DNA from: Barnesiella viscericola DSM 18177
GTDB taxonomy: Bacteria > Bacteroidota > Bacteroidia > Bacteroidales > Barnesiellaceae
Length of the DNA stretch: 64,000 bases
Direction of reading: 5' to 3'
NCBI RefSeq assembly: GCF_000512915.1
Contig: NZ_CP007034.1
Coordinates: 2,170,001-2,234,000 of the forward strand
Position numbers and translations under genes: made by a program. The notes under the pieces are model-generated. The model had not been told where the DNA came from and made no database searches. It saw only the letters and a program-made list of their open reading frames with translations. Shown in pieces: positions 9 through 62,204 of this stretch. Within the stretch, counting starts at the first letter, position 1; each line of letters begins with the position of its first letter.

Positions 9-183
9 TATCTTTTATATGCGATAGGATTCAGTTCGGTATAGCCAAACTTGAAAACTGTGTTTTCGTTTGCCTCTACTCTCACCTTTCACTATCTTTG
101 TAGAAGATAGGAGTCGGCTCGGCCTTGTCAAACTTGAAAACACCGTTTTCGTTTGCCACGGCTCTCGCCTTTCACTATCTTTG
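9..183 (+). promoter_or_regulatory. Tandem promoter-repeat array upstream of the CBS/nadK genes
   Basis: Three consecutive promoter-like units. The first keeps only a degenerate -7 box (TATCTTTT at 9-16); its upstream part lies outside the window. The second has GAAAACTGTGTTTTC at 53-67, TTTG at 69-72 and TATCTTTG at 93-100. The third has GAAAACACCGTTTTC at 136-150, TTTG at 152-155 and TATCTTTG at 176-183. In both complete units the palindrome is 1 base from TTTG and TTTG is 20 bases from the -7 box, matching the Bacteroidota sigma-ABfr promoter form. The -7 boxes are 84 and 83 bp apart. Nearly the same 83-bp segment recurs upstream of rsgA. The last unit should drive the gene starting at 234. 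Confidence 0.8.
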
Positions 184-233: not shown

Positions 234-890
234 ATGAAAGCAAAAGATATGATATTGCCCGAAATACCTTACTTGTCGGCCGAGATGACGGTGGGGCAGG
301 CCCGTGCGGTGTTGGATCGTTCGGGTCGGTCGAGTCTGCCGGTGGTCGATGCGGGGGAGTATGTGGGCATTCTTCACCGTCGGGAACTGGCTGGCGAATC
401 CGATGGGGATACGGTCGGACGGGAGAATCTGAGGCAGCCTGCCGTGCGGGAGGAGACTCACCTGCTCGACGTGGTGAACCAGTTTGCCCAATATACCGAC
501 GACGTGCTTCCCGTGGTCGACCGGAACCGCCGTTACGTGGGGGCTATCCCCATTCATGCGGTGATGGTGGCCGTGGCCCGGTTGTGTCAGACCTCGTCGT
601 CGGGGGCCATCATCGAGCTGGAAATTCCTCGGGCCGACTACTCGGCAACCGAACTTACCCGGCTGGTGGAGGATAACGGTTGCCGGGTGATGAATCTGAT
701 GATACGCCCCGACGAGAAGTCGGGCCTGTGGCGGGCTTGCCTGCGTATCGACCGTGAGGACGCCACGCCGGTGTTGCGCTCGTTGGAGCGGTTTGACTAT
801 CGGGTGCTGAGCTGTTACCAGCTGCACAGTGTGATGGACGACCGCATCGAGCAGCGTATCAAAGAGTTGATGTATTATTTGGAAATGTGA
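234..890 (+). CDS. CBS-domain protein (AcuB-like)
   Basis: A 218-residue soluble protein with two CBS motifs, about residues 6-60 and 70-130. A C-terminal segment (about 136-200) resembles a small ACT-like regulatory fold, as in AcuB-type proteins. CBS pairs generally bind adenosyl nucleotides and modulate a partner. No catalytic residues are visible. The stop codon lies 8 bp before the NAD kinase start, so the two genes are almost certainly co-transcribed from the promoter array upstream. An adenine-nucleotide sensor beside NAD kinase is suggestive, but a functional link is inference. The ATG at 234 follows the last -7 box by about 50 bp and is preferred over upstream frames that merely translate the repeat. 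Confidence 0.8.
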   Translation: MKAKDMILPEIPYLSAEMTVGQARAVLDRSGRSSLPVVDAGEYVGILHRRELAGESDGDTVGRENLRQPAVREETHLLDVVNQFAQYTDDVLPVVDRNRRYVGAIPIHAVMVAVARLCQTSSSGAIIELEIPRADYSATELTRLVEDNGCRVMNLMIRPDEKSGLWRACLRIDREDATPVLRSLERFDYRVLSCYQLHSVMDDRIEQRIKELMYYLEM

Positions 891-24067: not shown

Positions 24068-24115
24068 CAAATATAGTGAAAGGCGAGCGCAAAGGCAAAT
24101 GAAAACGTAGTTTTC
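24068..24115 (-). promoter_or_regulatory. Single promoter-repeat copy upstream of the Dpm1-like gene
   Basis: On the minus strand: palindrome GAAAACTACGTTTTC (24115-24101), one base, TTTG (24099-24096), 20 bases, TATATTTG (24075-24068). Spacing is identical to the array at the left edge. The spacer ends in the shared CGCCTTTCAC. It is the only copy at this locus. Confidence 0.8.
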
Positions 24116-24151
24116 AGAATTGCCTTGGTCGGGGGTATTCTAGCCGAGAAT

Positions 24152-27072: not shown

Positions 27073-27417
27073 TATCTTCTGAGTTTAATTGCCTAATCGC
27101 TTTTTAGTCAACTTGTTAACTTTTGTATAAATTTTCTTTTTGGAGGGACGCTCGAAAAAGCGATATCCCGGGAGAGGCCGATTCGTTTTTCCACGTAATA
27201 ACAAATTACGGTTCAGAAGGTTTGACTCGGTGACACTATTTATATAAAAAGTCTTTTGTTTAATAAATCGAGCCTGTCGAAGGAGGTAAACTTTTTGAGA
27301 TTTTTGTGACAGTTGCCCGAGAATTAATAGGTCTCAACAGACCTGCAAACTATTTGTTATAATTCTCGAAAATGCTCTTCTTGACCGCTTGGGCGGCGGC
27401 TCGGCAGAGTCCGACCT
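27073..27417. other. Gene-free stretch before the rpiB promoter array
   Basis: About 345 bp with no credible coding frame. It is AT-rich to about 27360. It holds a short hairpin, AGGTCTcaacAGACCT, near 27330-27345, and no promoter consensus on the plus strand that I can defend. Decayed repeat copies start right after it. Confidence 0.5.
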
Positions 27418-27695
27418 GAAAACGGTGTTTTCTATGTCGCTACTCTCGACTTTGGCTGATTTTGCTGGATACCGCATCGAGGTGCGGTATGACTTGCGGG
27501 TGTCACTTCGCGCTGTGACGTGGGGACCAGTTGGGGAGGCGTATCAAGAGATACAGCCCGGCAGAGTTCAACTCGAAAACTGTGTTTTCATTTGCCACGG
27601 CTCTCGCCTTTCACTATCTTTGTAGAAGATAGGAGGCGTCTCAGCATAAAAATCAAGCAAGCCTGTTTTTCTGCTTTCGACTTTCACTATCTTTG
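27418..27695 (+). promoter_or_regulatory. Promoter-repeat array upstream of rpiB
   Basis: A decayed unit keeps the palindrome GAAAACGGTGTTTTC (27418-27432) and a CTACTCTCGACTTTGG remnant, but no -7 box. A complete unit has GAAAACTGTGTTTTC (27575-27589), TTTG (27591-27594) and TATCTTTG (27615-27622). A third unit ends with TATCTTTG (27688-27695) and lacks the palindrome. The last two -7 boxes are 73 bp apart, and the 81 bp spanning them match 72 positions of the corresponding segment upstream of rsgA. The final -7 box is 13 bp before the rpiB ATG. Confidence 0.8.
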
Positions 27696-27708: not shown

Positions 27709-28173
27709 ATGAACGCTATGAGTATATTGAAATCGGGAAAGCCGGTGGGGTTGGCCTGCGACCATGCCGGATATGAGATGAAACAAGTTGTGATGCAGGA
27801 ACTCGATGCTCGGGGTATTGCTTATAAAGATTTCGGTACCTATTCGACCGACAGTTGCGATTATCCCGACTATGCCCACCCCCTGGCCATTGCCGTGGAG
27901 CAGGGCGAGTGCTATCCGGGTATTGCCATTTGCGGTAGCGGCAATGGCATAAACATGACGTTGAACAAGCACCAGGGCATTCGCGCCGCCTTGTGCTGGA
28001 CCGAAGAGATTGCTTCGCTGGCCCGTCAGCACAACGATGCCAACGTGCTGGTGATGCCCGGTCGGTTCATTTCGGCCGATTTGTGCCGTCGTCTGGTCGA
28101 CATCTTTCTGAACACCGAGTTTGAAGGCGGTCGCCACCAACGTCGCATCGACAAGATACCGGTGAAGCAATAA
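27709..28173 (+). CDS. rpiB: Ribose-5-phosphate isomerase B
   Basis: A 154-residue RpiB/LacAB-family isomerase interconverting ribose-5-phosphate and ribulose-5-phosphate. ACDHAGYEMK near 17-26, the active-site CGSGNGINMTLNK from 75 and the QHNDANVLVMPGR segment near 107-119 are diagnostic. Catalytic Cys75 and His108 are present. Upstream in-frame codons translate the promoter repeat and are not part of the gene. ATG 27709 gives a very short leader from the last -7 box; ATG 27718 is an alternative. Confidence 0.95.
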   Translation: MNAMSILKSGKPVGLACDHAGYEMKQVVMQELDARGIAYKDFGTYSTDSCDYPDYAHPLAIAVEQGECYPGIAICGSGNGINMTLNKHQGIRAALCWTEEIASLARQHNDANVLVMPGRFISADLCRRLVDIFLNTEFEGGRHQRRIDKIPVKQ

Positions 28174-28561: not shown

Positions 28562-28609
28562 TAAAGATAGTGAAAGGCGAGAGTAGAGGCAAGCGGAAAT
28601 CCTATTTTT
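28562..28609 (-). promoter_or_regulatory. Diverged promoter-repeat copy upstream of folB
   Basis: On the minus strand: CTTG at 28593-28590 and TATCTTTA at 28569-28562, separated by 20 bases that share CTCTACTCTCGCCTTTCAC with the left-edge copy. One base upstream of CTTG, the palindrome position holds the diverged but still partly dyadic AAAAATAGGATTTCC. Confidence 0.65.
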
Positions 28610-28652
28610 GAGGAGGAACCCTAAACTAATATTTCGTCCTGAGAAAAAAGAA

Positions 28653-60985: not shown

Positions 60986-61918
60986 CTAGAAGGCCTCCCG
61001 GTATTTCCCGTTGGAACTGTCGTCGATGATACTCAGGTAACTGGCATATCTCGATTCGCTTATCTCGTGATTTTCAAGTGCTTTCAGTACTGCACAGCCC
61101 GGTTCGTGCCGATGGGTGCAGTTGCTGAAACGGCACTCCTGCGAAATCTGAAAAATTTCGGGGAAGAAATGGGCCACCTCGCCGGGCTCGAAATCGATGG
61201 TACCAAACCCCTTGATACCCGGGGTGTCGATGAGGTATCCTCCTTGCGGCAGCGGGTACATCTCGGAGAAGGTGGTCGTGTGCATACCTTTGTGGTGGGC
61301 CGTCGACACGGCGCCTATCTTGATGTCGACACCGGGCAGAATGCGGCTGATGATGGTCGATTTGCCCACCCCCGAGTTGCCCGAGAGGAGGGTAATGCGA
61401 TCTTTCAGGCTGTCGGTGATGAAATCGAATCCCTCGCCGGTAGCCGCCGACACGCAGCGGCACTCGTAGCCGATAGTGCGGTAGAGGTGGCAGAGGGCCT
61501 CGGCATACTCCCGGTCGTCGGGCGAGAAGGTGTCGCATTTGTTGATGACAATGTGTACGGGAATGCGGTAGGCCTCGGCCGTAGCCAGGAACCGGTCGAT
61601 AAAGGTGGTCGAGGTGAGTGGTGAGTTGACGGTTACCACCAGCAGGGCCAGGTCGATGTTGGCCGCGATGATGTGCGACTCTTTCGACAGGTTGGAGGCC
61701 CGGCGTATGATGTAGTTTTTGCGCTCGTGTATGCGTGTGATAAAGGCGGTGCGGTCGGGGTTAAGCTCGATGTCGACACGGTCGCCCACCGACACGGGGT
61801 TGGTGCTGCGAATTCCCTTCAACCGGAAATTCCCCTTGATTTTACACGGTATCGACTCACCGGTTTCGGTGCGTACGATATACCAGCTTCCTGTATTTTT
61901 GATGACAAGCCCTTCCAC
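60986..61918 (-). CDS. rsgA: Small ribosomal subunit biogenesis GTPase RsgA
   Basis: A 310-residue circularly permuted GTPase. The OB fold starts with [15 protein letters not shown]4 (NKCD) precedes G1 (GNSGVGKST) and G3 (DTPGIKGFG), the hallmark order, and the zinc site [14 protein letters not shown] follows. It acts in late 30S maturation. The GTG at 61918 is the likely start: it gives the family N-terminus and lies 20 bp from the last -7 box. The in-frame ATG upstream would translate the promoter repeats. Confidence 0.93.
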
Positions 61919-61937: not shown

Positions 61938-62142
61938 CAAAGATAGTGAAAGTCGAAAGCAGAAAAACAAGTCCACTTGATTTTTCTGCTGAGACGTATC
62001 TTATCTTCTACAAAGATAGTGAAAGGCGAGAGCCGTGGCAAACGGAAACGGAGTTTTCAAGTTTGACAAGGCCGAGCCGCCTCCTGTCTTCTACAAAGAT
62101 AGTGAAAGGCGAGAGTAATGGCAAGCGGGGAGCGAAGTTTTC
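61938..62142 (-). promoter_or_regulatory. Three-unit promoter-repeat array upstream of rsgA
   Basis: Minus-strand -7 boxes TATCTTTG end at 62094, 62011 and 61938, spaced 83 and then 73 bp. The middle unit is complete: GAAAACTCCGTTTCC (62058-62044), TTTG (62042-62039), 20 bases, TATCTTTG (62018-62011). The first unit has CTTG and a half-palindrome. The last lacks the palindrome. The 83-bp segment matches the left-edge array at 87 of 91 positions, and the 73-bp segment matches the rpiB array at 72 of 81. Confidence 0.85.
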
Positions 62143-62204
62143 GAGTAGAACTCGGTCGGGCCGCAGCCTCTCCATGCCTCTCGGGTGGCAGAAGGATAAA
62201 AGCA

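Follow-up and report, generated by a model that had tools for sequence, protein, structure and literature searches.

In the window, the 64-kb stretch of Barnesiella DNA analysed here, promoter-like sequences lie in arrays of short units. We think it probable that these units are copies of a non-coding, palindromic mobile repeat, which carries what reads as a primary-sigma promoter and would use existing promoters as its landing sites. This reading draws on near-identical copies at unrelated loci and on relatives whose corresponding sites hold no unit. Promoter-carrying repeats of palindromic or MITE-like form are already known, Correia elements and BrickBuilt being examples; what seems to be new is that the repeat lands precisely at the -7 box, that its own end rebuilds both promoter and target, and that exchangeable arrays result. 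Closely related species with and without units at the same sites, some of them available as isolated strains, make the choice of target testable.

Repeat units in the window and beyond

A unit spans from just 3' of one TTTG through the end of the next TATnTTTG. Upstream of rsgA, three minus-strand -7 boxes (TTTCACTATCTTTG) lie at 61938, 62011 and 62094 with the spacings of 73 and 83 bp that the original prediction had given. It had also matched the 83-bp module to window positions 93-183 and the 73-bp module to the rpiB array at 27615-27695, and an ungapped recount reproduced both values exactly (87 of 91 and 72 of 81 positions). The window as a whole has 15 sites that fit the box pattern with up to three mismatches, compared with a mean of 3.78 and a maximum of 10 in 100 shuffles. 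The units and their neighbours are the following.

9..16, plus strand: native -7 box TATCTTTT left of the left-edge insertion, its last base decayed, recognised from relatives without units
17..100 (left end approximate), plus strand: first unit of the left-edge array
101..183, plus strand: gene-proximal 83-bp unit of the left-edge array; the sister species G001 has a 75-bp type at the same place
234..890, plus strand: CBS-domain gene downstream of the left-edge array
24068..24131, minus strand: lone TATATTTG-type unit upstream of a glycosyltransferase-like gene; two units here in G001
27376..27383, plus strand: probable decayed native -7 box TCTTCTTG left of the insertion at the rpiB locus, relatives compared by eye
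27540..27622 (left end approximate), plus strand: 83-type unit of the rpiB array
27623..27695, plus strand: gene-proximal 73-bp unit of the rpiB array
27709..28173, plus strand: rpiB
28562..28612, minus strand: lone diverged unit
60986..61918, minus strand: rsgA, 3' of its array, with a likely GTG start at 61918, 19 nt past the last TTTG
61938..62010, minus strand: gene-proximal 73-bp unit of the rsgA array, terminating in TATCTTTG
62011..62093, minus strand: 83-bp unit of the rsgA array, subfamily 'CGGCTCGGCCTTGTC'
62094..62176 (left end approximate), minus strand: leftmost, diverged unit of the rsgA array, common to G001; six other species have no unit

The lone and more diverged units at 24068 and 28562 indicate that the family is wider than the three loci of the window. 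We searched the complete genome to which the window belongs (G000, a single contig of 3,076,856 bases) with a 20-base pattern. Judged by RpiB, Barnesiella sp. An55 and An22 are its nearest named relatives. The original prediction had called for a self-comparison with a count of copies, and this count came to 93 matches (54 + 39, up to three mismatches), against 2 (1 + 1) for a reversed-pattern control. The matches group into 63 places, 25 of which hold two to four boxes. With a looser box that allows two mismatches, 29 arrays comprise 35 box-to-box units, 14 of them 83 bp long, six 73 bp and the other 15 between 75 and 88 bp.

The repeat was present in all nine Barnesiella genomes searched, with 22-83 matches each at up to one mismatch. 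Across the Bacteroidales, 274 of the 295 genomes searched had no match to the pattern; of the 21 with matches, 14 had at least six and the other seven had one to three, and single matches are near background since the reversed control matches once in four of the Bacteroidales genomes. Members of one genus can differ sharply at up to two mismatches: G076 has 45 matches and its congeners G180 and G272 have none, G096 and G197 have 37 and 33 against none in G284, and G036 and G243 have 22 and 28 against one in G149. One unit lies inside a -7 box of a 46-kb Phocaeicola massiliensis plasmid (OY726013; L158, 2990-3101). This patchiness within genera, together with the plasmid copy, points to horizontal spread of the repeat. 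Viral contigs scanned for the exact pattern had no match. Nine unannotated fecal records labelled 'Bacteriophage sp.' (MT836408, MT836672 and seven more) do match, one of them at four places, and host contamination is possible in these.

The modules are dispersed and exchanged. In a count that used 75 of the 93 matches, the nearest relative of an arrayed unit lay at another locus in 39 of 50 cases and in the same array in 11. The left-edge unit at 101..183 shares an identical 72-nt stretch with a unit 892 kb away, and G001 has other modules at both places. The net length difference between G000 and its sister G001 is 84, 84, 81 and 169 bp in four arrays, which corresponds to about one, one, one and two units; in other arrays modules have been replaced while the flanks still align. 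Nine pairs of near-identical units lose their similarity immediately past the box on the downstream side. In the upstream direction, four pairs are back at background level after a single unit and the other five retain some similarity, which we attribute to additional units beyond the first. In G005, the rpe-cutC segment (L045 compared with contig C4, 49882-54911) is inverted relative to its neighbour with breakpoints at convergent arrays, an arrangement that recombination between inverted copies would produce. The proposal made from the window, of a dispersed repeat that carries promoters and has interchangeable modules, is therefore borne out by the location of nearest relatives and by the differences between orthologous arrays.

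Orthologous sites with and without units

The left-edge gene of G002 and G004-G007 has no unit and is preceded by a native promoter containing TATCTTTG or TATATTTG; in the other species, counted by eye, there are two units in G000, two in G001, one in G008 and three in G003. The native box of G000 persists on the left as TATCTTTT, and the TATCTTTG of the last unit abuts the native downstream sequence. At rpiB, the G000 units are flanked on the left by TCTTCTTG, probably the native box in decayed form, and on the right by native downstream sequence; read by eye, G001 has a degenerate unit and the other seven relatives have none over the stretch read. At ispD, G006 has no unit and reads ...ACTACTTTTG/TCATCATAG, and G002 reads ...ACTATCTTTG/one unit/TCATCATAC. 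In all three cases the join immediately follows the TTTG of the native -7 box, which stays on the left and is sometimes decayed, and the unit supplies a new right-hand box co-oriented with the gene.

Other loci show similar variation to differing degrees of clarity. There are no units at rpe in G004 and G002 or at cutC in G008, and at both genes the other species differ in the number and type of units. At rsgA, three units (by eye) are common to G000 and G001, G003 has five or so of its own and six species have none; no native box was recognisable left of the G000 array. The priA promoter of G004 and G005 resembles the right half of a unit, and these sites may or may not be unit-free.

A target duplication was not seen at ispD beyond the shared box, and a few bases past TTTG may be duplicated at the left edge. 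The clearest result against a uniformly clean junction is the only match in G149 (L325, 1421-1560), where a unit precedes a tRNA-Gly gene and a copy of the tRNA leader plus the first bases of the gene lies left of the unit. This duplication is about 28 bp long with one mismatch and reaches past TTTG into the tRNA. Mapped on the species tree, some nodes of which are weak, the distribution at the left edge calls for about three gains or else for three to four exact losses, and exact loss of a unit is possible because the flanking boxes are direct repeats. The original prediction had held that identical arrays with equal divergence in all orthologues would indicate old, vertically inherited promoters; the comparison instead found sites without units, and module type and number that differ between species.

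Hairpin and promoter sequence of the unit

Each unit is one long imperfect palindrome whose right arm terminates in the TATnTTTG -7 box. A left arm resembling AAGATAG, which can pair with the CTATCTT of the same unit's -7 box, is recognisable in 83 of 85 distinct Barnesiella box-to-box units. It starts exactly 3 nt past TTTN in 65 of these 85 and in 19 of 25 units from other genera. Other unit types keep the outer arms, and their central hairpin is swapped wholesale.

Covariation was assessed in an alignment (A1) of 47 units. Of 75 distinct units, 55 measure 80-88 nt, and eight of these were left out as odd, doubtful or built on another central hairpin. In the 28-pair hairpin of the alignment, 91.8% of cells are paired, and double changes occupy 69 cells compared with 20.1 in shuffles. 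The covariation score is 0.170 against 0.079 for shuffled alignments, none of 500 shuffles reaches it, and slid structures score at most 0.053. The fourth base of the -7 box takes part in this, forming GC with the left arm in 28 units, TA in 10 and other combinations in nine. When the unit's own box and the preceding box were compared to ask which one the left arm tracks, the two mostly agreed. RNAalifold, run unaided, found only 15 inner pairs, and folding of 10 chosen units gave z of -2 or below in eight as RNA and in five as DNA.

On the top strand of the 47 units, A.C mismatches (47) outnumber G.T pairs (21). This excess gives no encouragement to the idea of a selected top-strand RNA, but it may say little, since promoter constraint also acts on the right arm. 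Matched arms could arise without selection if imperfect palindromes are corrected by template switching, and homogenisation of inverted-repeat arms by that process has been described (PMC7202029, PMC8604942). Rfam models at gathering scores had no match in the window and, at four other loci, none on the units. The sole strong match at those loci was the sRNA FopS in L321 (1975-2043, minus strand, genome G029), off the units and a few hundred bases beyond a multi-unit array.

By sequence, TATnTTTG, joined in 83-type units by a TTTG 20 nt upstream, fits the consensus of the primary sigma factor, sigma-ABfr, as quoted in PMC7366714, where the -7 box is described as common to the phylum. We defined 38 of the 63 places as strong (a best match with at most one mismatch, or more than one box), and none of these falls within a reading frame; the next frame downstream is on the same strand at 30, on the opposite strand at five and absent at three. 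In four of the five opposite cases a co-directional, family-matched gene starts 27-104 nt downstream, so the mechanical choice of frame was wrong there. A co-directional frame of at least 80 codons follows within 450 nt at 46 of 50 places, and within 50 nt at 35; this count considered same-strand frames alone, so it is no test of orientation, and 13 lone weak matches had been excluded by eye from the 63. Pfam was run on 42 of the 46 downstream proteins, and the other four were covered wholly or nearly by another annotation pass. The downstream genes are diverse and many are housekeeping genes, including rpe, ispD, priA, recR, ftsK, dapB, rsgA and rpiB, a UvrD-type helicase, an argS-type synthetase and an RNB-domain nuclease. 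Among them is also a tyrosine recombinase gene, perhaps of Xer type, which lies downstream of a unit at G000:C1:1729008 (L057), where G001 has one extra unit.

Boxes within an array do not appear to be kept equally. In G000, the last G is retained in the gene-proximal box of all 29 arrays and in 23 of 35 upstream boxes, and all 12 upstream boxes that deviate from TATnTTTG do so at the last base. Full-consensus boxes number 28 of 29 in the gene-proximal position against 23 of 35 upstream (Fisher p = 0.004). The contrast is weaker in G001, where the last G is present in 25 of 27 gene-proximal and 26 of 34 upstream boxes and the full consensus in 24 of 27 and 24 of 34 (p = 0.12). As decay of the last G is confined in G000 to upstream boxes, the promoters of an array are probably not all used equally, though most upstream boxes are intact. 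The label 'tandem promoter arrays' in the original prediction may therefore be misleading.

Proposed mechanism of insertion and its rivals

If the repeat is mobile, a unit would be copied from elsewhere and inserted 3' of a TTTG, probably by way of a folded single strand and with no constant target duplication. A putative factor would act at the TTTG of melted -7 boxes, and the single-stranded -7 region of the open promoter is a plausible candidate explanation for the choice of target. The TTTG at the end of the unit would remake both promoter and landing site, so that the gene stays transcribed and further units can be added head to tail, after which the upstream boxes would drift. It is possible, and we offer it tentatively, that this amounts to a new kind of mobile element, with active core promoters as its homing target: a hairpin repeat ending in a -7 box, which a putative factor inserts into the bubble after TTTG, rebuilding promoter and landing site, leaving genes unsilenced and turning promoters into arrays of exchangeable cassettes. 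If so, a selfish-looking repeat would repeatedly replace the promoters of housekeeping genes and be tolerated for the matching promoter that it supplies. This would explain fast promoter turnover in gut Bacteroidales, offer a route to the study of mobile DNA inside core promoters and provide a compact natural set of exchangeable promoter parts.

Insertion in one orientation beside a short motif, with no constant target duplication, is typical of IS200/IS605, IS91 and integron cassettes; their movement possibly involves folded single strands, and integron cassettes form tandem arrays. In its near-single orientation, short motif, head-to-tail arrays and apparent lack of a constant duplication, the Barnesiella repeat resembles such insertions. 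It differs from them in that its targets are promoters, and in the enzyme domains of the genomes that carry it. Domain searches covered 28 genomes, several of them incomplete drafts, and 19 of these were carriers with at least six repeat matches. The Y1 transposase domain (PF01797, which includes RAYT) occurred in 5 of the 28, in 2 of the 19 carriers and not in G000; control genomes were positive in 5 of 14. IS91/Y2 was rejected, as PF04986 occurred in one of the 28 genomes, G297, itself without a repeat match, and in none of the 19 carriers; the positive controls were also negative (0 of 14), so that control was silent. The integron attC core has the form RYYYAAC/GTTRRRY, and inspection of the unit ends in alignment A1 by eye revealed no such core. 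Reverse transcriptase (PF00078) was found in 11 of the 28 genomes and 7 of the 19 carriers, and is the only one of the three domains in G000. Reverse transcription of a transcript from the hairpin foot was an attractive idea because the arm mostly begins 3 nt past TTTN; we rejected it since PF00078 is missing in 12 of the 19 carriers (several being incomplete drafts) and there is no top-strand excess of G.T.

The main rival to a mobile repeat, and a serious one even though we rate it as rather unlikely, is enzyme-free template switching between -7 boxes. Here a polymerase would switch template at a shared 8-9 bp -7 box, copy the unit from another locus and switch back at the next box; homologous recombination and slippage among copies would account for the remaining changes, with quasipalindrome correction keeping the two arms matched. 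Such switching accounts for co-orientation, landing at the -7 box, the absence of a constant target duplication, replacement of modules with conserved flanks, the long duplication in G149 and the fact that no enzyme was found, and homologous recombination between arrays fits the inverted rpe-cutC order in G005. Distribution speaks against it: the -7 box is phylum-wide, yet 274 of 295 Bacteroidales genomes are matchless and congeners have dozens of copies or none, which suggests a lineage-specific factor. In addition, native boxes in unit-free relatives often differ from TATCTTTG (e.g., TACTTTTG and TACATTTG), so the shared homology may be TTTG only, if those boxes are unchanged since insertion.

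A classical MITE, derived from an insertion sequence and mobilised by a DDE transposase acting on its terminal inverted repeats, is improbable. Its traits are present in that units of 73-88 bp are short, non-coding, palindromic, intergenic, promoter-bearing and multicopy with terminal inverted repeats (AAGATAG/CTATCTT), but no constant target duplication was seen, and the units have nearly one orientation and a single target motif. We consider it very improbable that the arrays are ancient tandem promoters passed on vertically, or the operators of a single regulon. They do lie upstream of genes, many of them housekeeping; their presence, number and module type nevertheless differ between congeners at the same genes, and central hairpins are swapped wholesale. 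A regulon or operator reading was rejected because the downstream genes are diverse and have no evident common function. REP elements have GTAG at their feet. REP/REPIN elements moved by RAYT share hairpins and a junction that often reads GTAG before the hairpin, but they are hardly credible here, since the units hold a whole promoter and form ordered arrays at -7 boxes and the defining partner, PF01797, is absent from G000 and from 17 of the 19 carriers. REP/REPIN hairpin repeats are reported to be kept for long times at moderate copy number (PMC8049555). The 'REP- or MITE-like' label of the original prediction accordingly loses its REP half, with RAYT in 2 of 19 carriers and none in G000, and keeps a weak MITE half, no constant target-site duplication having been seen.

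Two known repeats come closer in promoter content. Correia elements have a TA target duplication and variable orientation. Like the Barnesiella repeat, the Correia elements (NEMIS) of Neisseria are short, dispersed, promoter-carrying repeats that lie mostly just upstream of genes (reviewed in PMC10969869); they belong to another phylum and promoter type. The Barnesiella repeat, unlike Correia elements, inserts at the TTTG of a -7 box in nearly one orientation and forms head-to-tail arrays, and neither a TA duplication nor variable orientation was seen. BrickBuilt of Porphyromonas gingivalis, from the same order as Barnesiella, is MITE-like and always intergenic with demonstrated promoter activity; it differs in having a 23-nt direct repeat between leader and tail and bidirectional promoters, and its terminal inverted repeats have been compared with those of local IS elements (PMC4596501). 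No description of the Barnesiella repeat was recognised in the published literature covered, a coverage that lies outside subscription journals and preprints.

A second dispersed palindromic repeat was observed at window positions 27468-27530. It consists of two hairpins, GATACCGCATCG.GGTGCGGTATGAC and GTCACCCCGCGCTGCGACG.GGGGTCCAG, and each hairpin has 10 matches with up to four mismatches in 445 kb chosen around arrays. Further copies lie in G000 at 1353245, 1353403, 2301522-2301581, 2308536, 2308701 and 2521968, and several copies are found just upstream of or inside promoter arrays.
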